From the NCBI GenBank assembly GCA_030647905.1, contig JAUSJA010000007.1, positions 1 through 64,000 of the forward strand: a DNA stretch of 64,000 nucleotides, in the 5' to 3' direction. Positions 7,951-27,584 of the stretch are shown here, piece after piece. A program made the translations under genes and the position numbers. Numbering within the stretch: the first letter of the stretch is position 1; the number at the start of each line of letters is the position of its first letter. The notes under the pieces are model-generated. The model was not told the DNA's origin and ran no database searches. It was given only the letters and a program-made list of their open reading frames with translations. Source of the stretch: Gemmatimonadaceae bacterium. GTDB lineage: Bacteria > Gemmatimonadota > Gemmatimonadetes > Gemmatimonadales > Gemmatimonadaceae.

Positions 7951-9725
7951 GCTTTCATCCGAACGACATCGCGCGTCGAACCCGGGTCATCTCGTACGCG
8001 CTGGGAATCGGGTTCGTACTGCTTCTGAGCGCGTTCTTTCGGGCGCAGGTCCTCCAGACCGAGTCCTATAAGAAACAGTCCGAGGACAACCGTCTTCGCG
8101 AGATTCCGCTTCCGGCGCCCCGCGGTATCATCTACGATCGCAAGGGCGAGATCATCGCGGAGAATCTTCCCGCGTATTCCGTCTCGCTCACGGCGACGAA
8201 TCTCGATTCGCTGCGGGCATCGCTCAAGGTGCTGCAGCCGACGCTCCAGCTCACCGAGTACGACATCACCGCGGCGATACGGCGGTACAAGCGTGCTCCG
8301 ACGCGCCCGACGGTGATCCTGCCAGACGCGTCCATAGACGTCATCTCGGTGCTCGAGGAGCATCGCATTGATTTTCCGCGCCTCATCATCCAGTCGGTTC
8401 CGAAGCGATTCTACCCGGACGGTCCGATCGTCGCGGCATTCGTCGGATATACGGGTGAAATCACGGAGGGCGAGCTCAACCTTCCGCAGTTCGCCGGCTA
8501 CAAGCCCGGGCAGACGATCGGGAAGGGCGGGCTGGAGAAGCAGTATGAGAGCGTGCTCCGGGGCCAGGAGGGCCAGCGGTTCGACGAGGTGGATGCGCGC
8601 GGCCGTCCGGTGCGCGACATCGGCCCGCGACCCGAGAAGAATGCGGTCGGGGCTCCTCCGCTCAAGACCAACATTGATCTCGATCTGCAGAAGTTCGCGG
8701 CGAGCGTCTTCGGTGATTCGCTTCAGGGCGGAGTGATCGCACTCGATCCGAAGAACGGCGCCGTGCTCGCACTTTACAGCAATCCGAGCTACGACCCGAA
8801 TCGCTTTACCGGCGGCATTCCGGTGGATTACTGGAAGGAGCTCAACACCGATCCGCGCAAGCCTCTTTTCAACAAGGTGATTCAGGGCACGTATCCGCCG
8901 GCATCCACGTGGAAGCTTGCGACATCGGTTGTGGGACTCGAGAACGGGATCGTCACGTTGGACTCGCACATGCCGATTGCATGCACGGGTGGCTTGCAGT
9001 ACGGCCGGCGCTATTTCAGGTGCTGGGAAAAGCGGGGGCACGGCAGCCTGAATCTTGCCGGAGCCATCACCCATTCGTGCGACGTCTATTTCTATCAGCT
9101 CGGGCTCAAGATCGGGTTGTCGAAGCTCGTCGCCGGCGGAATAGACCTCATGTTCGGCGAGAAGTCTGGGATTGATCTGCCTGCCGAGTACAAGCCGCGC
9201 TTCCCGACACGCGATGTTCGCGCGTACTACAACCGGCTGTTCGGGGCAAACTGGAGCAACTCCGAAACGCTGAATCTCGCGATAGGCCAGGGCGCGAATT
9301 CACAGACCGTCGTGAACATGGCGAAGTTCTACGCCGCACTGGCAACAGAAGGAACCTCCTCGACTCCGGAGCTCGTCGCCAGGACGCCGGATCAGAAGAA
9401 GATCATCAACCTGACCCCCGAGCAGTTCGCCGGACTCAGGAGGGCAATGGCCGGCGTGACGTCGGCAGGCGGCACGGCCGCATCCGCGAACATCCAGGGA
9501 CTCGTCATCGCCGGCAAGACGGGCTCGGCTCAGAACACGTCCGATCCGAACAAGGATCACGCGTGGTTCGTCGGCTTCGCTCCAGCCGAGAATCCGAAGA
9601 TCGTGGTGGCGGTATTTCTCGAGTTCGGAATCCACGGTTATTTAGCGGCGCGAGTCACGTCGAAGATCATCGGACACTATCTCCGTATTGGTGGTGAGGC
9701 CGTCGTGAATACAGAGGGCGGCTGA
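7947..9725 (+). CDS. mrdA: Penicillin-binding protein 2 (elongation transpeptidase)
   Basis: Cell-wall DD-transpeptidase of the elongasome. The 592 residues begin with a membrane anchor (about 15-30), followed by the class B PBP pedestal (PAPRGIIYDRKGEIIAEN, GGLEKQYESVL) and the catalytic domain. The active serine is S320 in STWK, the second motif is SCD (in THSCDVYFYQ) and the third is KTGS beginning at K524. It overlaps mreD and rodA by four bases and one base. PBP2 and RodA form the polymerase-crosslinker pair. Confidence 0.97.
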   Translation: MSFHPNDIARRTRVISYALGIGFVLLLSAFFRAQVLQTESYKKQSEDNRLREIPLPAPRGIIYDRKGEIIAENLPAYSVSLTATNLDSLRASLKVLQPTLQLTEYDITAAIRRYKRAPTRPTVILPDASIDVISVLEEHRIDFPRLIIQSVPKRFYPDGPIVAAFVGYTGEITEGELNLPQFAGYKPGQTIGKGGLEKQYESVLRGQEGQRFDEVDARGRPVRDIGPRPEKNAVGAPPLKTNIDLDLQKFAASVFGDSLQGGVIALDPKNGAVLALYSNPSYDPNRFTGGIPVDYWKELNTDPRKPLFNKVIQGTYPPASTWKLATSVVGLENGIVTLDSHMPIACTGGLQYGRRYFRCWEKRGHGSLNLAGAITHSCDVYFYQLGLKIGLSKLVAGGIDLMFGEKSGIDLPAEYKPRFPTRDVRAYYNRLFGANWSNSETLNLAIGQGANSQTVVNMAKFYAALATEGTSSTPELVARTPDQKKIINLTPEQFAGLRRAMAGVTSAGGTAASANIQGLVIAGKTGSAQNTSDPNKDHAWFVGFAPAENPKIVVAVFLEFGIHGYLAARVTSKIIGHYLRIGGEAVVNTEGG

Positions 9726-10969
9726 TGCGGCGCATTGTCGCGGATTATCCGCTCGTCATCACCGCGCTGCTGCTGTCAATCTTCGGAGTAGCGATGGTTT
9801 ACTCCGCCGGGCAGACGGACACGCCGACAGCTGTCGCGCGCGTCTACAAGTCGCAGATCGTCTGGTTGGGCATCGGAATGCTCGGCGCGTACGGAATCAG
9901 CCGTTCGTCGGTGCGATTCATTGAGTGGGTGACGCTGCCGGCGTACATTTTGTCCATCCTGCTGCTCGCGGCGACGCTGGTCATTGGGTCTGGAGCGGGC
10001 ACGGCCGCATCCACCAAAAGCTGGCTGGCGATCGGCGGCGTGCGCATCGGTCAGCCCTCGGAGCTGGCGAAGCTCACGGTAGTGCTGATGCTCGCCCACA
10101 TCCTCGCGGCGCGCAAGGAGCCGCCGAGGTCTCTGCTCGATCTATGGAAGCCGGCGCTCGCGGTTGGCTTGCCATGGCTCATCATCATGCTGCAGCCGGA
10201 CCTCGGCACCGGCATCGTGTTCATTGGCATTTTCTTTGGGATGCTGTACTGGTCCGGCGTGGCGTGGCCGCTTCTTCTTCTGCTTGGAAGCCCGGTGGTC
10301 AGTCTCATTCTGTCGTTCAGCACAGGAATGTGGGGAGCGTGGTTTCTCGTCCTGCTCGCACTCATACTGTACTACAGGCCATATCTCATAGAAGGAATCG
10401 TGCTGCTGGCGGCGAACATCGCAACCGGCGTGGTCGCGCCGATTCTCTGGGAGAAGCTCGCGCCGTACCAGCAGAACCGGCTCAAGGTCTTTCTCGATCC
10501 CGCCGCCGACCCGCGCGCGTCGGGATATCACGTGATCCAGTCGAAGATCGCGATCGGATCGGGAGGACTCTTCGGTCAGGGCTTTACCCTCGGAACGCAG
10601 AAGCGACTGGCATTCCTGCCTGAACAGCACACCGACTTCATCTTCGCCGTCCTTGGCGAGGAGATGGGGTTCCTCGGCGTCACGGTGGCGCTGACGCTCT
10701 TTCTCGTGCTGTTTCTTCGCATCACCCAGATCGCCGGCCGCGCCAACGATTCGTACAGCTCGCTCGTTGCGTTCGGACTCATGGCGAGCTGGTTCGTGCA
10801 CGTCCTGGTGAACGTCGGCATGACGCTCAACCTGATGCCGATCACAGGCATCCCGCTGCCGTTCTTCAGCTACGGCGGGTCATTCATGCTCGCAAGCTGG
10901 TTAGCCATAGGAGTGCTCATGCGCATCTCCGGCGAAGGCCGGGGCAAGGCCGCCTTCCGCACCAGCTGA
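9725..10969 (+). CDS. rodA: Rod shape-determining protein RodA (SEDS glycosyltransferase)
   Basis: Lipid II polymerase of the lateral wall. The 414-residue protein is polytopic (about ten hydrophobic segments) with SEDS landmarks: KSWLAIGGVRIGQPSELAKL early, YQQNRLKVFLDP in the large loop, GSGGLFGQGFTLGTQ, LPEQHTDFIFAVLGEEMGF and the C-terminal TGIPLPFFSYGGSFMLA. It starts one base into the mrdA stop (TGATG). The elongasome set ends here, with 119 noncoding bases before accD. Confidence 0.97.
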   Translation: MRRIVADYPLVITALLLSIFGVAMVYSAGQTDTPTAVARVYKSQIVWLGIGMLGAYGISRSSVRFIEWVTLPAYILSILLLAATLVIGSGAGTAASTKSWLAIGGVRIGQPSELAKLTVVLMLAHILAARKEPPRSLLDLWKPALAVGLPWLIIMLQPDLGTGIVFIGIFFGMLYWSGVAWPLLLLLGSPVVSLILSFSTGMWGAWFLVLLALILYYRPYLIEGIVLLAANIATGVVAPILWEKLAPYQQNRLKVFLDPAADPRASGYHVIQSKIAIGSGGLFGQGFTLGTQKRLAFLPEQHTDFIFAVLGEEMGFLGVTVALTLFLVLFLRITQIAGRANDSYSSLVAFGLMASWFVHVLVNVGMTLNLMPITGIPLPFFSYGGSFMLASWLAIGVLMRISGEGRGKAAFRTS

Positions 10970-11014
10970 GAGTCAATTGTCTGCGAGGTACGAGCGTCGG
11001 CCTGTCTCGCCTGA

Positions 11015-11047
11015 ATCCTCGCGGGATCCTCGCGGGATCCTCGCGGA
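11015..11047. repeat. Three 11-bp tandem repeats between rodA and accD
   Basis: The unit atcctcgcggg occurs at 11015-11025 and 11026-11036, then once more with a final-base change at 11037-11047. No hairpin with a T-run was seen, so it is not an obvious terminator. It sits in the accD leader. Confidence 0.8.
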
Positions 11048-11088
11048 AAACCTTGCCTGTCTCGCACCTCCCGGTCACATTTCTACGA

Positions 11089-11952
11089 ATGGCCTGGTTC
11101 CGCAAAGAAAAGAAGCCCCGACAACCGCGGCGTGAGAAACACGAGATACCCGCGGATGCGTGGGAGAAATGCGAGCGATGCGGACACACCGACATCCGCG
11201 AGAATTTCGTCCGCAACCTGAACGTATGCCCGGGGTGCGACTATCACCGCCGCATACGGGCCATCGAGTACGTCAATCTCCTCCTCGATGAGGGCACCAC
11301 CGAAGAGACCGAAACCGATATTCGATCCACGGATCCCCTCGGTTTCCCCGAGTATCCCGGGCGCCTCGCCAAGGCCATCGCCAAGTCGGGCGAGGGCGAC
11401 GCCATCCTCACGTTCACCGGACAGCTCCTCGAGCTGCCGGTGTGCCTCGGCGTGATGGACTTCGCCTTCATGGGTGGCTCCATGGGATCCGTCGTCGGTG
11501 AGAAGATCGCACGGCTCGGACAGAAGGCGCTGGAGAGAAAGTTCGCGTTCATTCTCGTCTCCTCATCCGGCGGCGCCCGAATGCAGGAGGGAGTGCTCAG
11601 CCTGATGCAGATGGCGAAGGCCGCGGCCATCCTGTCGCAGCTTGCCGAACGTCGTATTCCATACGTTTCGATTCTCACGAACCCGACGACCGGCGGAGTC
11701 AGTGCGAGCTTCGCCATGCTCGGTGACGCCATCCTCGCCGAGCCGGGCGCTGTCATCGGGTTCGCCGGGCCTCGCGTCATCAAGCAGACGATCGGGCAGG
11801 ATCTCCCCGAAGGATTCCAGACGTCAGAATTCCTCCTCGAGCACGGAATGGTTGACGCAGTCGTGCAGCGCAAGGATCTCAAGCAGACGGTGGGACAACT
11901 CCTGCGGCACATGAGTGGCAAGCCCGCGGCAGCGGGGTGGACAGCGGCCTGA
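11089..11952 (+). CDS. accD: Acetyl-CoA carboxylase carboxyltransferase subunit beta
   Basis: Carboxyltransferase half-subunit that, with AccA, moves CO2 from biotin to acetyl-CoA in fatty acid synthesis. An N-terminal zinc ribbon is visible at C28, C31, C47 and C50. The crotonase-type core follows, with MGGSMGSVVGEKI and SSSGGARMQEG oxyanion-region motifs. The 287-residue length is normal. The ATG at 11089 (MAWFRKEKK) is the family-like start; the open frame from a TTG at 11053 adds 12 unlikely residues. accA is not in the window. Confidence 0.95.
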   Translation: MAWFRKEKKPRQPRREKHEIPADAWEKCERCGHTDIRENFVRNLNVCPGCDYHRRIRAIEYVNLLLDEGTTEETETDIRSTDPLGFPEYPGRLAKAIAKSGEGDAILTFTGQLLELPVCLGVMDFAFMGGSMGSVVGEKIARLGQKALERKFAFILVSSSGGARMQEGVLSLMQMAKAAAILSQLAERRIPYVSILTNPTTGGVSASFAMLGDAILAEPGAVIGFAGPRVIKQTIGQDLPEGFQTSEFLLEHGMVDAVVQRKDLKQTVGQLLRHMSGKPAAAGWTAA

Positions 11953-13220
11953 CCTCATATCGCTCCGCGCTCGACGCGCTCTTTGCGCGGACGGGCGCGA
12001 CTTCGAAGTACGGGCTCGAGCGCACATTCGAATTCCTGCGGTTGCTCGGGAATCCGCAGCAGAGAATCAAGACCTTCCATGTGGCCGGCACCAACGGGAA
12101 GGGAAGCGTCGTCGCCACGCTTTACGCCCTGCTCAGGTCCAGGGGAATAAGGGTCGGACGCTACATGTCGCCGCATCTCATCGACTTTCGCGAACGGATC
12201 GTCGTGGACGATAATGCGATCGGCGAGCAATACGTGCTCGGGTTTCTCGATCGCTGGGGCCCGTCGGCGGAACGGCTTGGCGCGACGTTCTTCGAGATAA
12301 CGACGTGCATGGCTCTGGACTACTTCGCGTCGTACGAAGTGGATGTCGCGGTCATCGAGACGGGACTCGGCGGGCGTCTCGATTCCACAAACGTGATTCA
12401 ACCGCTCGTAGCCGGCATCACATCCATCGCGCTCGACCACCAGGAATACCTCGGCGACACCGAGGAGCTGATCGCGCGGGAGAAAGCCGGGATATTCAAG
12501 CCAGGCGTGCCGTCGGTGATCGGAGCGATGTTCACCGAAGCGCGGGTGGCGATCTGTCGCACCGCCGCGGATGCGGGCGTGGCCGCGGTAATAGATGCGA
12601 CACGGCTATATCAGACGAGCAACGTCACGCTGACGGCGAATGGCACGAGCTTCACGGTGACACACGGCGCCGAATCAGCGGACTTGACCATCGGTCTCAC
12701 AGGAATGGCGCAGGCGGATAATGCTGCCGTCGCGCTGTCAATGTTGCACGCCGCCGGGAGTCCCTGGGCGGTGAGTCTCGAGGAAGCGCGTGACGTGCTG
12801 CCGTCCGTTCTGCTGCCGGGCCGGTTTCAGCGTGTCGGCCCTTACATTCTCGACGTCGCGCACAACCCCAACGGGATGAAGTCTTTCGTCGCGACGTTGG
12901 CCGCGGTTGGCGTCAGTCATCCCGCGACCGCTGTGGTGGGCGTGCTGAACGACAAGGATTGGCGGCAGATGCTCTCCATTCTTGCAACCGCGGCTGATTC
13001 GATCGTTCTGGTCGCGCCGCCGAGCGCGCCGCCACAGCGCGCGTGGCACCCTGAAGAAGCGCTCGCGTTCGCGGAGTCGCAGGGCATATCCGCATCGGTG
13101 GATCCGGATTTTGCTCATGCCGTACAGACAGCGCCGGCAGCCGCCGAGTCCGTTCTCGTCACCGGATCGTTCCACACGGTTGGCGACGCGCTCCTGACAC
13201 TCGGGGAAACCACGCTCTAG
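11937..13220 (+). CDS. folC: Folylpolyglutamate synthase / dihydrofolate synthase
   Basis: Mur-ligase-family enzyme that adds glutamate to dihydropteroate and folates. The P-loop FHVAGTNGKGSV lies near residue 48, followed by YMSPHLIDFRERI and the ATP/Mg motif ETGLGGRLDSTN. The C-terminal Rossmann domain has LDVAHNPNGMKSF. The GTG start at 11937 overlaps accD by 16 bases; accD-folC order is widespread. folB and folK lie about 40 kb away in the trp-pan block. Confidence 0.94.
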   Translation: MDSGLTSYRSALDALFARTGATSKYGLERTFEFLRLLGNPQQRIKTFHVAGTNGKGSVVATLYALLRSRGIRVGRYMSPHLIDFRERIVVDDNAIGEQYVLGFLDRWGPSAERLGATFFEITTCMALDYFASYEVDVAVIETGLGGRLDSTNVIQPLVAGITSIALDHQEYLGDTEELIAREKAGIFKPGVPSVIGAMFTEARVAICRTAADAGVAAVIDATRLYQTSNVTLTANGTSFTVTHGAESADLTIGLTGMAQADNAAVALSMLHAAGSPWAVSLEEARDVLPSVLLPGRFQRVGPYILDVAHNPNGMKSFVATLAAVGVSHPATAVVGVLNDKDWRQMLSILATAADSIVLVAPPSAPPQRAWHPEEALAFAESQGISASVDPDFAHAVQTAPAAAESVLVTGSFHTVGDALLTLGETTL

Positions 13221-22216: not shown

Positions 22217-23523
22217 CGCCGTCGTTCTTCTGGCTGGCGGCAATCACCGGCGCGCTGTCGCTGCTCACGCCGTGCGTGTTCCCGATGATCCCGATCACCG
22301 TGGCGTATTTCAATAAGAGATCCGATCGCGGTAATGCCCATGTGCTGACACATGCGCTGCTCTTCGCCATCGGCATCGTCGCCACGTTCACCGCGCTCGG
22401 ATTGGGTCTCGCAGTCGTCGTAGGTGCGGCCGGCCTCGCACGCTTCGCCGCGGATCCGTGGGTCAACATCGCGATCGGCGTGGCCTTCGTCGCCTTCGCG
22501 CTGAGCCTTCTTGGCGTGTACGACCTGCCGCTTCCATTCTCCAATCGGTTCGTGAACCGCGTTGACGCATCAGCACGCAATCGCTCGGGCCACGCGGCCG
22601 GCTCCGTGCTGATGGGCTTCGCGTTCACGCTGGCGTCATTCACATGCACTGCGCCTTTCGTCGGCCCGCTCCTTGTTTCTGCTGCACGCGGCGACTGGGT
22701 TCGCCCGCTCGCCGGAATGGTCGTGTTCTCGTCTGTATTCGCGGCTCCATTCTTTCTTCTCGCCCTCGTACCGCGTTGGGCGGCGGCGTTGCCGCGCGCC
22801 GGCGTGTGGCTCAAGGATATCAAGGTCATCGTCGGCCTCTTCGAGATCGCCGCGGCGCTCAAGTTCTTTTCGAACGCCGATCTGGTATGGGGCACGGGAC
22901 TCATCCCGCGGCAGAGCGCTCTTCTCGCGTGGGTTGCGCTCGCGATAATTGCAGCCGGCTATCTCGCCTACGCCGCAAGCAGGAGCGGCAACACGAGGAC
23001 CATTGCGCGCTGGATCGCGCCGGCGGCGGCTGCAGGTGTGGCCGTGTGGCTGATCATGGGGCTGCGCGGCAGATCGCTCGGCGAAGTCGAAGCATTTCTG
23101 CCGCCAGATGACATTGCCGCTTCAGCACGCCTCGCTTCCGTCGGCGCCGACGGACGACCGATCGAGCTGCAGTGGATTCTGAACGATCACCGCAAGGCGC
23201 TCGAAACGGCCTCCGGGACGGGCCGGCTGGTTTTAATAGACTTCACCGGATACACGTGCACCAACTGCCGGTGGATGGAAGCCAACATGTTCGCGCGACC
23301 TGAAGTCGCCGCGTCCATGTCGCGCTACGTCTTGAGCCGCCTCTATACCGACGGCGAAGGCGAGCTTTACGAGAACCAGCAGAAATTCCAGGAGGACCGC
23401 TTCGGCACCGTTGCGCTGCCGCTTTACGCCATCGTGGACAGCCGCGGGCGGACGGTCCGCACTTTCTCAGGGCTTACCCGCAATCCCGCCGAGTTTCTCG
23501 CCTTCCTTCGGGACGCTTCCTAG
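22213..23523 (+). CDS. dsbD: Thiol:disulfide interchange protein DsbD (membrane and thioredoxin domains)
   Basis: Carries reducing power from cytoplasmic thioredoxin across the inner membrane. The 436 residues hold an eight-helix beta domain with the redox cysteines C21 (TPCVFP) and C145 (SFTCTAPF). A C-terminal thioredoxin-like gamma domain has C349-T-N-C352 (GYTCTNCRWME). The alpha domain is supplied by the preceding overlapping gene, so the two together equal a complete DsbD. It ends 13 bases before the convergent large hydrolase gene. Confidence 0.92.
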   Translation: MTPSFFWLAAITGALSLLTPCVFPMIPITVAYFNKRSDRGNAHVLTHALLFAIGIVATFTALGLGLAVVVGAAGLARFAADPWVNIAIGVAFVAFALSLLGVYDLPLPFSNRFVNRVDASARNRSGHAAGSVLMGFAFTLASFTCTAPFVGPLLVSAARGDWVRPLAGMVVFSSVFAAPFFLLALVPRWAAALPRAGVWLKDIKVIVGLFEIAAALKFFSNADLVWGTGLIPRQSALLAWVALAIIAAGYLAYAASRSGNTRTIARWIAPAAAAGVAVWLIMGLRGRSLGEVEAFLPPDDIAASARLASVGADGRPIELQWILNDHRKALETASGTGRLVLIDFTGYTCTNCRWMEANMFARPEVAASMSRYVLSRLYTDGEGELYENQQKFQEDRFGTVALPLYAIVDSRGRTVRTFSGLTRNPAEFLAFLRDAS

Positions 23524-23536
23524 CATCCCGGGAACG

Positions 23537-26476
23537 TCACCCTGACTTCCCGGACCGACCAGCGCCGTCTTCGGCGCCCTCTTGTACATGTTGAAGTGAA
23601 TGTTCAGCGGCTTCGCTCCCCGCACCGCGCTGAGCACGCGGCCGAAGGCTCATGGACTCGAGGAAGACTTCCGTTTCGCCTCGCGACTCGTCAGAATCGG
23701 ACTGGAGGGTGATGCCCATCACCTTGAGGGCGTCGGCGGGGATTCGCGGATAGGCCCGTCGTATGTCCGCGGCGATGTCTCTCTCGACATTCTGCCATCG
23801 GTCCCGTTCGGCCGGCTTCCCGATGCCCATCAGCCAGGCTTCGGGGAGCGTCGAGACGACGACGTTTCTTCTCGACGACAACGCTTCGACCAACGAGTCG
23901 CCCGCGGGCGCCACTCCGGATGCGTCCCTTGCCGTCCACCAGTAGCCGAACATCACGGGCCCGGTGTCCGCTCCCGGCCGGGTGTCCTGGAGCAGCAGCC
24001 ACACCTTGAACGCTGCGTCGTTTTTTCCGCGGCGCGTTTTTCCCGGATCCACCCCATCCGCGTTGCGCGCGACGCGCAGCCGGATACTCAGCAACGGGAA
24101 ATCTGACGGGCGGAACTGGAACGACACGGTCGTCATCTTGATCGCCGTCTGGCGCGTGGCGAAGCGACATGCGCGGCCGGTCGCGGATCCGGCGGAAGGA
24201 ATCATCGAGAACCCGTTTCCGAAATCGTCCTCGCTGCCGCCGTTGCCCGAGTCGTAGTAGAACTCGTACTCGCGCCTGAACTCGAGCATGTCGCGTTGGT
24301 CACACCGGAATACAACTCCGCCCGGGCTGGCCAGCGGCGACATCTGTCGGACCGGATTGACTCCAGCGCGCTCGACGTGAGCACTATTGAACATCCGGTC
24401 CGGCGTCCAGCCACTGCTTCCCCCGGGGAGCGCACCGCCGGGGCGCAGCGACGCGGAAAACGGCGAAACGCGCTCTTCAGCGGGTTTCGAGAAACGACTC
24501 AGCAATTTCCACCGCGGGGCGTCGCTCTTCGCCACCGCCGCAAGCCACCGCGCATTCACATCCGGGCGTAGAGCGCCCAGCTCGGCGACGGTGATCACGA
24601 CAGCTTCGAGAAAGGCGTCCTGCGGAAATGACGATGCGAGCCGCCCTGCGATGTGATCGGCGTGTATCGTCCCGAGGTCAATGGCATGAACGCGCGGGGG
24701 AAAGCGCGACGACGTGAGCGCGACGACTCCGTCGTTGGGCTCCTGAAACTCAGCCGCGCGCTTCGTGAGCTTCATCCACGGGTGCGCGTCGGCCATGTCG
24801 GTCTCGAACGAGAACGAGAAGTAGCGCGTCAGTCCGGCGGTCTCACCAGCGTGCTCGCTCCAGAATGCGGCGCGACTGGATGGCCAGAGGGTTCTCGCGG
24901 CGTCAGTGCTGTCGCACGCCGCGGGACGCGGAGCATCGACGCCCCACTCCATCGCGCCCGAAGGAATGCCGGCGCGCTCGGCCACTGGCGTCCCCCCGTG
25001 TGGAGACGCGATGGACACCAGCGCCGCGATCTGCGAGCGCGCAAGGTGCGGCGCGACGAGGAGCGCTTCGGTGGCGTCAACACCACCCTTCGAGTATCCG
25101 AGAATGAGGTACCTGGGGCGCGTGTATCCCCGGAGGCGGCGTCTCTCCGTATCCTCTCGCAACGCCGTCACGATCTGCGCCGAGTTGACGCGCGCGCCGC
25201 AGCGACCGTCAACGGGAATGGTTAGAGTGCGGACGCCAAGCCTATCGCGAACGGCTCTCAGTCCCCGCGACCAGATCTCCTGATCGAAGAGCTCGGTGTA
25301 GATGCCGGGGACGTACACGACAGTGACGTCGCCAAGGTCGGGGTCGTAGAGCAGCGGCATCCGCGCCGGGTCGGCGGCGAGACGGAGCTTGCGTTCCGCG
25401 TAGACCTCACCGAACAGCCGGCGCGGTGTGACACTGTCCTCGAGAAGCGCGCCCGGGCTGGATGCGATCTCCTGCCGAAGCTTCGTGTGCCATTCCAGCG
25501 CAAAGCTTGCATCTCGCGTATCGGGTATGCTGTCTTCTTCGGGAGCAGCGAGAGCGTCGTCGAGATAGTAGGGCAGGGTCCAAAGCGCCATCGCGAGCTT
25601 GCGCGTCGCAGATCCGTCGCCCCCGCGCGGTTTCCCGGTGCCGAGCTGCGCGCGGAGGTCCGCCAGAGGCGAGAGCTCTCTTATTCCGCGCATTCGCAAC
25701 TCCGCCTCCCTGACACGCTCGTCGGCGCGCTTCGTGTCCAGCGAATCCATCAGCGCGACAAGCGTGTCAACGTTTCCTGCCACGCCGCCCAGAATGTCTG
25801 CGCGCCTGAACGCCGACCGGGCGCGTGCCACCGAGCGACCGCTCGCATCGCCGACTCTCTCCGACGACATCGCGCTGAGGAGCCGCCGCATCACGTCGTA
25901 GTCAAAGTAGTCCATCGAGACTGCCATGGGCCTCGCGCGCCGCAGGAAAGACACAGCGTACGAATCGTCTTCCCGGCCCGTCGAAACCTTGTGGCCGCCG
26001 GACAGCAGGCCGCGGGCAAGAGCAACTGGATCGTGAGGAGCAAGGGCGGCGACGCGCGAGAGAACCGAATCCGCCGGGATTCCGATGACGTCGAGCACCT
26101 CGTTTCCGCGGACGAATGCCGGCACCGGCCCGGTCGTGCCGGCAACTACTCCCAGCGATGCGCGCGCGCCGAACATCCGCCTGGTTCCGATGATCTCCGT
26201 CCACGACGGGTGGCTCATCGAAGGGTAGGGCGCCACGCTGCGTCCGGCGTAGCGAAAGCGGCGGAACATGCCCCGCCGGCGTGCTTCCGTGAACGCTTCC
26301 CAGCTCAACCCGTCAACGGCGAGAAGGAGCTGCCGTGCGTGCGGTGCAATGGGCGCTGTGTCGGCCTTGTGATCAACCCATGCCCGCCGGCCGGCAACGC
26401 CGAGCGTAGCAGCCACGATTGCGGCCGCTGCGCCAAATATCACGAGTTGTTTTCCAGCGCGCCGACTCGGGGGCAT
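23537..26476 (-). CDS. Three-part membrane-anchored hydrolase (phosphodiesterase-like, alpha/beta-hydrolase, DUF3047-like)
   Basis: A 979-residue protein not recognised as any described fusion. Residues 11-28 form a membrane anchor. Residues 48-120 resemble the start of alkaline-phosphatase-superfamily phosphodiesterases (AVDG at 53-56; YPSMSHPSW at 84-92), but no DHG-type downstream metal motif was seen, so this part may be inactive. Residues about 385-625 look like a lipase-type alpha/beta-hydrolase: GYSKGG with S462, then NDGVV (D582) and HADH (H608) as possible triad members, plus SPHGGTP. Residues about 735-945 resemble DUF3047 (RNVVVSTLPEAWL, WQNVERDIAADIRRAYP, LQSDSDESRGETEVF). It lies 136 bases downstream of an envelope-type cassette. 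Substrate is unknown. Confidence 0.65.
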   Translation of the reverse strand: MPPSRRAGKQLVIFGAAAAIVAATLGVAGRRAWVDHKADTAPIAPHARQLLLAVDGLSWEAFTEARRRGMFRRFRYAGRSVAPYPSMSHPSWTEIIGTRRMFGARASLGVVAGTTGPVPAFVRGNEVLDVIGIPADSVLSRVAALAPHDPVALARGLLSGGHKVSTGREDDSYAVSFLRRARPMAVSMDYFDYDVMRRLLSAMSSERVGDASGRSVARARSAFRRADILGGVAGNVDTLVALMDSLDTKRADERVREAELRMRGIRELSPLADLRAQLGTGKPRGGDGSATRKLAMALWTLPYYLDDALAAPEEDSIPDTRDASFALEWHTKLRQEIASSPGALLEDSVTPRRLFGEVYAERKLRLAADPARMPLLYDPDLGDVTVVYVPGIYTELFDQEIWSRGLRAVRDRLGVRTLTIPVDGRCGARVNSAQIVTALREDTERRRLRGYTRPRYLILGYSKGGVDATEALLVAPHLARSQIAALVSIASPHGGTPVAERAGIPSGAMEWGVDAPRPAACDSTDAARTLWPSSRAAFWSEHAGETAGLTRYFSFSFETDMADAHPWMKLTKRAAEFQEPNDGVVALTSSRFPPRVHAIDLGTIHADHIAGRLASSFPQDAFLEAVVITVAELGALRPDVNARWLAAVAKSDAPRWKLLSRFSKPAEERVSPFSASLRPGGALPGGSSGWTPDRMFNSAHVERAGVNPVRQMSPLASPGGVVFRCDQRDMLEFRREYEFYYDSGNGGSEDDFGNGFSMIPSAGSATGRACRFATRQTAIKMTTVSFQFRPSDFPLLSIRLRVARNADGVDPGKTRRGKNDAAFKVWLLLQDTRPGADTGPVMFGYWWTARDASGVAPAGDSLVEALSSRRNVVVSTLPEAWLMGIGKPAERDRWQNVERDIAADIRRAYPRIPADALKVMGITLQSDSDESRGETEVFLESMSLRPRAQRGAGSEAAEHSLQHVQEGAEDGAGRSGKSG

Positions 26477-26558
26477 GAATGCAATGGTTCGGGTTCTTCG
26501 CCGGAGGTCCTCTCAAGCCGGCGGGACAAGAATAAGTGCGCGACGGCTCTGGGGACAT

Positions 26559-26593
26559 ACGTATCCTTACGTATCCTTACGTATCCTTACGTA
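26559..26593. repeat. 10-bp tandem repeat, 3.5 copies
   Basis: The unit acgtatcctt repeats perfectly at 26559-26568, 26569-26578 and 26579-26588, then acgta at 26589-26593. Each junction makes the palindrome TACGTA. It lies in the 136-base gap between the UPF0104-like gene and the large hydrolase gene, so it falls in the leader of the latter. Confidence 0.9.
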
Positions 26594-26612
26594 GCGGCTG
26601 CTTCCGTGGCCT

Positions 26613-27584
26613 TTACCCGCGGCTGCGCCGGAAAATGAATTCGGGCGCGAGAGCGACGCCTACCAGCGTCAACGGGATTATCTGCAGCGTTTGAATCAGC
26701 AGCGAAACCGCAATGGCGTCAGTCCGCGCCACCCCGAACTGCTCCGCGGTAAGCGCATAAACGAACTGAAAGAACCCGACATTTCCGGGCGTCGCCCGGA
26801 TGACGAGACCCAGGTTGATGGCGAGCAGCGTGGCGAGGCTGCCCGCAACCGGGATTGACACGTGAGCAGCCGAGGCGGCCAGAGCGAAGGTTGCGAGCTG
26901 TCCGGCCCAGGCAAGCATCGAAAGAACGAGCGCTGCGCCAAACCGGCCGCCGGAGGTGAGCGACCGCGTGCTGGCGGCGAAGCCGGACACGTACCGCTTG
27001 ATTCGCGATCCCGCGCCGAGGTCACGCGCAACGACGCCTTCGTCCGTAACCGGTCCGGTGCGGCGCGATGAAAAGACGAGGAGTGCGAGCAGGACAGCGA
27101 TCACGGCGAGGAGCAGCTCGGCCGGATATCTCCATTTCTCGAGCGAGGGCGGCAGATCGAAGACGAGTGTCCCAACGACAATCAGGATCACGAATCCGAC
27201 CGGATCGAACAGGCGTTCGAGGGCAAGCGTCGCGAGAACGCGCTCGCTTGGAATGCCGCTCGCGCGAGAGACGAAGACGACCCGGGCAGCGTCTCCACCA
27301 TTGGCCACGAGCACGTTGTTGAGGCCGGCTCCCGCCACAGTGGCGCGCATCGCCAGCGACAGCGAGGAGGATCCCGCCGGCCTCAGGAACACCCACCACC
27401 TGAAGCCCTTCGCCGCCAGCGAGAGCAGGTTGACCGTTAGCGCTCCCAGAAGAAGCGGCGGCGACGCGCTCCGGATCGAATGCCACGCCTGGCTCCAGGC
27501 AATGGACCGGGCGAACAGGATCAGGAACACCACAATGACCGCGGATACTCCCCAGCGGAGAACCCGCGATGTGTTGCGGCTCAT
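26613..27584 (-). CDS. UPF0104 / LPG-synthase transmembrane-domain-like protein
   Basis: Polytopic membrane protein of 323 residues with about eight hydrophobic segments. Family landmarks are the KGFRWWVFLRP stretch after TM2, NNVLVANGGDAARVVFVSRASG, LERLFDPVGF, and RATPGNVGFFQFVYALT near the C-terminus. This family (PF03706-type) covers the flippase-like part of lysylphosphatidylglycerol synthase and many proteins beside glycosyltransferases. No cytosolic aminoacyl-transferase domain is present, so a role in lipid or glycolipid movement is inferred. It overlaps the deacetylase by one base. Confidence 0.8.
   Translation of the reverse strand: MSRNTSRVLRWGVSAVIVVFLILFARSIAWSQAWHSIRSASPPLLLGALTVNLLSLAAKGFRWWVFLRPAGSSSLSLAMRATVAGAGLNNVLVANGGDAARVVFVSRASGIPSERVLATLALERLFDPVGFVILIVVGTLVFDLPPSLEKWRYPAELLLAVIAVLLALLVFSSRRTGPVTDEGVVARDLGAGSRIKRYVSGFAASTRSLTSGGRFGAALVLSMLAWAGQLATFALAASAAHVSIPVAGSLATLLAINLGLVIRATPGNVGFFQFVYALTAEQFGVARTDAIAVSLLIQTLQIIPLTLVGVALAPEFIFRRSRG

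Follow-up and report, generated by a model that had tools for sequence, protein, structure and literature searches.

An open reading frame of 979 codons at positions 23537–26476 of the window (the 64,000-nt stretch of Gemmatimonadaceae DNA analysed here), on the minus strand, quite probably encodes a protein that was acquired horizontally, carries a deletion in its head and belongs to a family of giant, conserved enzymes that act outside the cytoplasm and pair a phosphodiesterase with a lipase. Alignments and structural models reveal a common architecture with both sets of catalytic residues in 29 relatives; in the window copy they reveal an in-frame deletion of ~333 head residues, an intact lipase triad and an insertion site that is empty in sister genomes. 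The predicted order of the family is a signal or anchor segment, an NPP-type metal phosphodiesterase with the ENPP6/autotaxin fold, a helical linker, an MGS0156-type serine lipase and a DUF3047 domain. For the window protein itself we predict a plain extracytoplasmic lipase/esterase role, which is likely.

The frame contains no stop codon or frameshift and has coding GC3 in every part, and its GC and GC3 match those of the neighbouring genes. Against Pfam, the window protein gives weak matches only (DUF3047, E 5e-4; PGAP1, 0.1), all below cutoff; a comparison with NCBIfam yields no family match and a single-sequence PDB search nothing significant. Full-length homologues align with it at 46–50% identity (E 1e-212 or better), so the match is not due to chance. 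The original prediction, made from the DNA letters, had proposed three independent parts, and the same domain order is found in the 29 relatives, proteins of about 1240–1330 aa from two phyla (Gemmatimonadaceae and Bdellovibrionota). Its description as a giant hydrolase holds as an observation but not as a complete protein, as ~333 head residues present in every relative are absent. The proposed membrane anchor corresponds to a hydrophobic segment at residues 11–29 (26390–26446, minus strand; mean Kyte-Doolittle 2.25), an uncleaved anchor or signal peptide with comparable N-terminal segments in relatives, and the suggested extracytoplasmic location is likewise probable. Residues 146–375 (25352–26041, minus strand) form a helical linker with no assigned family or fold in models of both the window protein and an intact relative; ferritin-like (YciF) matches to this linker (E 0.07–0.25) were dismissed as a helical coincidence.

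The lipase core comprises residues 376–640 (24557–25351, minus strand) and has an α/β hydrolase fold by profile and model. Among solved structures, the lipase/polyesterase MGS0156 (PDB 5D8M) comes closest to it: the family profile matches this structure with E 6e-14 and an aligned triad, and the window model superimposes on it with Z 28.7 and an rmsd of 3.2 over 272 residues (Foldseek E 7.5e-13). Both lipase and polyesterase activity are on record for MGS0156 (PMC5341072), which has a Ser232/Asp350/His373 triad and a lid held by a disulfide (PMC11236915). In the window protein, the triad consists of the nucleophile Ser462 in GYSKGG (codon at 25091–25093), Asp582 in NDGVV (24731–24733) and His608 in HADH (24653–24655), all on the minus strand. 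These residues had been predicted with exact numbers, and each is invariant in 30/30 members of an alignment of the window protein with 29 proteins from other genomes. Cys426 and Cys521 are also invariant in 30/30 members and probably form a disulfide, as would be expected outside the cytoplasm. A PGAP1-like identity (PF07819), suggested for this part, did not hold up: the score of 12.8 bits falls short of the gathering score of 24.3, and MGS0156 is nearer.

The heads of the relatives contain a complete NPP-type two-metal active site, with all seven residues (D, S/T, DxxxH, DH, H) present in 29/29. The motifs follow the order of the ENPP6 ligands D32, S71, D193, H197, H241 and H354, where the nucleophile is a serine (PMC4757880). 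The Gemmatimonadaceae sequences inspected have Ser at this position, and half of all rows have Thr. The model of an intact relative from Gemmatimonas (L031; 1200 aa, mean pLDDT 82.6, head mostly above 85) matches ENPP6 with Z 22.9 and an rmsd of 3.9 over 313 residues at 15% identity, and autotaxin with Z 21.6; a modelled likeness at 15% identity does not give specificity. PF01663 is matched by 20/31 family members, one of them shown above its cutoff.

The window copy alone lacks the last five of the seven head residues, along with ~333 residues of the head in all, so that it has neither the complete NPP-type metal site nor the complete fold, and the original suspicion of a catalytically dead head is borne out for this copy. 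The remnant before the deletion, residues 46–105 (26162–26341, minus strand), shows 57–76% local identity to Gemmatimonadaceae relatives and keeps the metal-binding Asp and the nucleophile Ser in the two motifs that had been pointed out, AVDG (residues 53–56) and YPSMSHPSW (residues 84–92). Relatives match in two stretches, query 24–112 and then query 95–950, with ~1 kb between them; their extra ~333 residues all lie at one place, after FGAR (query residues 102–105), and this segment holds DAxAHTH, SDHG and RTHG. Residues 106–145 (26042–26161, minus strand) are the last piece of the head fold, as the match of the intact relative to ENPP6 extends to its residue 439, about query residue 145.

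The β-rich tail, residues 720–945 (23642–24319, minus strand), resembles DUF3047 (PF11249). The window protein reaches 20 bits (E 5e-4) and misses the cutoff, a gathering score of 27; by profile-profile comparison (hhalign) with stand-alone DUF3047, represented by four proteins obtained by a family search, the tail nevertheless matches with 96.6% probability and E 6e-10, versus 0.1% for the reversed tail. The predicted DUF3047-like tail thus stands on its similarity to true members and not on the Pfam score. Among the 31 family members, 25 match DUF3047 at E ≤ 0.01. The fold-search lists for the window model contained no PDB match to the tail, but core matches filled them, so that this absence carries no weight; the paper library searched contained no DUF3047 function.

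Relatives are ~50% identical to the window protein at best. Among 395 genomes searched across the phylum, full-length relatives turned up within the same family, in genera coded g22 and g24, several of whose public records are named Gemmatimonas. A genome-contig scan with the single window protein gave no match, the query being too diverged; a scan with the alignment gave eight loci, and an alignment search of the class to which a Bacteriovoracaceae genome belongs identified two members. Full-length members are widespread in Bdellovibrionota (L116, L112–L129), with 24 carriers among 369 genomes. One carrier (L116) has a chromosome of 3,782,950 bases, the same size as that of the model predator strain Bdellovibrio bacteriovorus HD100. 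Another member, from a genome of the Bdellovibrionota sample (L119, G787), falls in the tree between the groups of Bdellovibrio and Gemmatimonadaceae, a position that suggests transfer between phyla. Neither the viral contigs nor the plasmids searched contained family relatives. Both modules also have stand-alone relatives, those of the head (~600 aa) in Gemmatimonas and those of the core (~400 aa) commonly in the class that includes the Bacteriovoracaceae genome; the protein is therefore a real fusion of modules that exist separately. In that class, 62/129 genomes match the core-lipase profile at E ≤ 1e-15. Stand-alone lipases of ~400 aa with the same core type were observed at L101–L103, and one stand-alone core lipase of this size had no name when compared with NCBIfam.

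Where a relative has both active sites intact, they may attack one kind of substrate one after the other; the simplest candidate is a phospholipid or another phosphodiester-linked lipid, either of the envelope or of external origin. The lipase would take off the acyl chains, the phosphodiesterase would then cut the head group or the glycerophosphodiester, and the DUF3047 tail could help in binding or positioning; only the ester-cleaving step would be left to the window copy. We put forward such a sequential attack on a lipid phosphodiester tentatively, giving it somewhat less than an even chance. That intact members act on non-phospholipids instead, e.g. nucleotide sugars, polyesters or teichoic-type phosphodiester polymers, is a real possibility that stops short of being probable: Xanthomonas NPP and phosphonoacetate hydrolase lie near ENPP6 in the fold ranking, MGS0156 degrades synthetic polyesters and a GT2/deacetylase/GH18 protein adjoins a Gemmatimonas copy, but with a lipase coupled to the head, a substrate shared by the two is most simply a lipid phosphodiester, and the neighbours vary among carriers. 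A far-reaching version of the lipid reading, which we regard as speculative and rather unlikely, would make the intact family a single-chain phospholipid-dismantling machine (lipase, head-group phosphodiesterase and binding domain) that is used by Bdellovibrio on prey membranes, was transferred to Gemmatimonadaceae and was pared to its lipase in the window lineage.

The window gene is the sole gene of a 3.1-kb insertion (23524–26612), delimited by comparison with sister loci, between convergent genes for dsbD (ends at 23523) and an LPG_synthase_TM flippase (ends at 26613). These two genes are adjacent and convergent in 14/14 sister loci, their stops lying −108 to +160 bases from each other; in one of these loci dsbD is incomplete, and in one the flippase gene is. 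The window gene was matched in 0/18 other genomes of the genus, and no transposase gene was seen beside it. Positions 26558–26593, in the part of the insertion that separates the flippase stop from the start codon of the window gene, hold 3.6 perfect copies of TACGTATCCT, possibly its promoter region or an insertion edge. The original prediction had read the position after an envelope-glycan cassette as a clue to function. Because the gene is alone in an insertion between genes that adjoin each other in every sister locus, this context says little, and its neighbours and those of its relatives are unrelated: LPG_synthase_TM, deacetylase and GT genes in the window, one GT2-deacetylase-GH18 protein at L031, Tgt at L032 and an NhaA-type antiporter at L030, while the L116 gene is flanked by those for polyphosphate kinase and Ppx/GppA and has an IS200-like transposase match beside it. 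An argument from operon logic was rejected since neighbours differ among carriers. The neighbouring frame at L031 (Gemmatimonas), positions 9590–13090, is open over 1167 codons and joins domains of three kinds: GH18, polysaccharide deacetylase and GT2.

A new arrival with a truncated head might be a decaying gene on its way to loss; it is carried only by the window genome among 18–19 of the genus, its site is empty in the 14 sister loci and one of its two enzyme halves is lost. We consider decay unlikely, given an uninterrupted frame, an intact lipase triad, intact cysteines and GC3 bias, and a query branch for the rest of the protein that is only moderately longer than the branches of intact relatives.

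Alignment against the 29 relatives places the deletion junction at codons 104–106 (26161–26167, minus strand), in frame, at a GCGCGCG stretch closely matched by relatives on both sides. With the ancestral sequence inferred, a 7-base in-frame register is likelier than an 11-base repeat, because the latter would not have preserved the frame. With the tree fixed, the terminal branch of the query measures 0.13 for the head remnant and 0.51 for the remaining protein. The remnant is thus not accelerated, and either the loss is recent or the remnant is still constrained; recent loss is the simpler reading. The loss indeed looks recent, the alternative being an error of assembly or binning in an organism that has the intact gene. 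Such an error would fit a draft genome of 37 contigs, the GC-rich junction, the lack of decay in the remnant and the intactness of all relatives. However, the junction repeats, inferred at ~7–11 bases, are too short to mislead an assembler working with the usual word sizes, the frame is exactly kept and the missing head piece is found nowhere else in the assembly, where the only two family matches both fall on the window gene, so we hold an artefact to be rather improbable. The original idea that the missing metal motif marks a dead head retained to recognise substrate for the lipase, or as a structural module, could appeal to the kept AVDG and PSMSHPSW, the undecayed remnant and the open, coding-biased frame, but it is very unlikely, as ~333 of ~430 head residues including the middle of the fold are gone, the nucleophile loop (residues 83–107) falls below pLDDT 50 in the window model and is well ordered in that of the intact relative, every other member has the full active site, and a recent deletion explains the undecayed remnant equally well.

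The family brings two complete, conserved active sites together in one exported chain in many Bdellovibrionota genomes; it has no name in the libraries searched, NCBIfam included, and literature searches found no paper reporting the three-part fusion. From it follows a testable prediction, the degradation of lipids by a predator, and the window copy offers a natural experiment in which one enzyme was lost and the other retained after transfer to a new genus.

The enzyme kinds are known; judged by the libraries and papers searched, their combination is new. The window core shares fold, triad order and spacing, and lid-region Cys with MGS0156, which stands alone (332 residues in the structure), has neither phosphodiesterase head nor DUF3047 tail and is 26% identical to the core. 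PGAP1, LCAT and DUF676 lipases share the region of the nucleophile elbow, all below the Pfam cutoff and more weakly than MGS0156. The heads of the relatives share fold, metal and nucleophile positions with the NPP family (ENPP6, 5EGE/5EGH; autotaxin; Xanthomonas NPP), from which they differ by the lipase fusion and the low identity (15%); of these positions, the first Asp and the Ser alone are retained in the window copy. ENPP6 has the Ser nucleophile of the Gemmatimonadaceae rows inspected, whereas other ENPPs have Thr, as does the protein of the L116 genome. Finally, DUF3047 shares the DD...V, Y.W, W..veRD..aD and sDsD motifs with the window tail; known as a stand-alone protein, it is fused here C-terminally to two enzymes.
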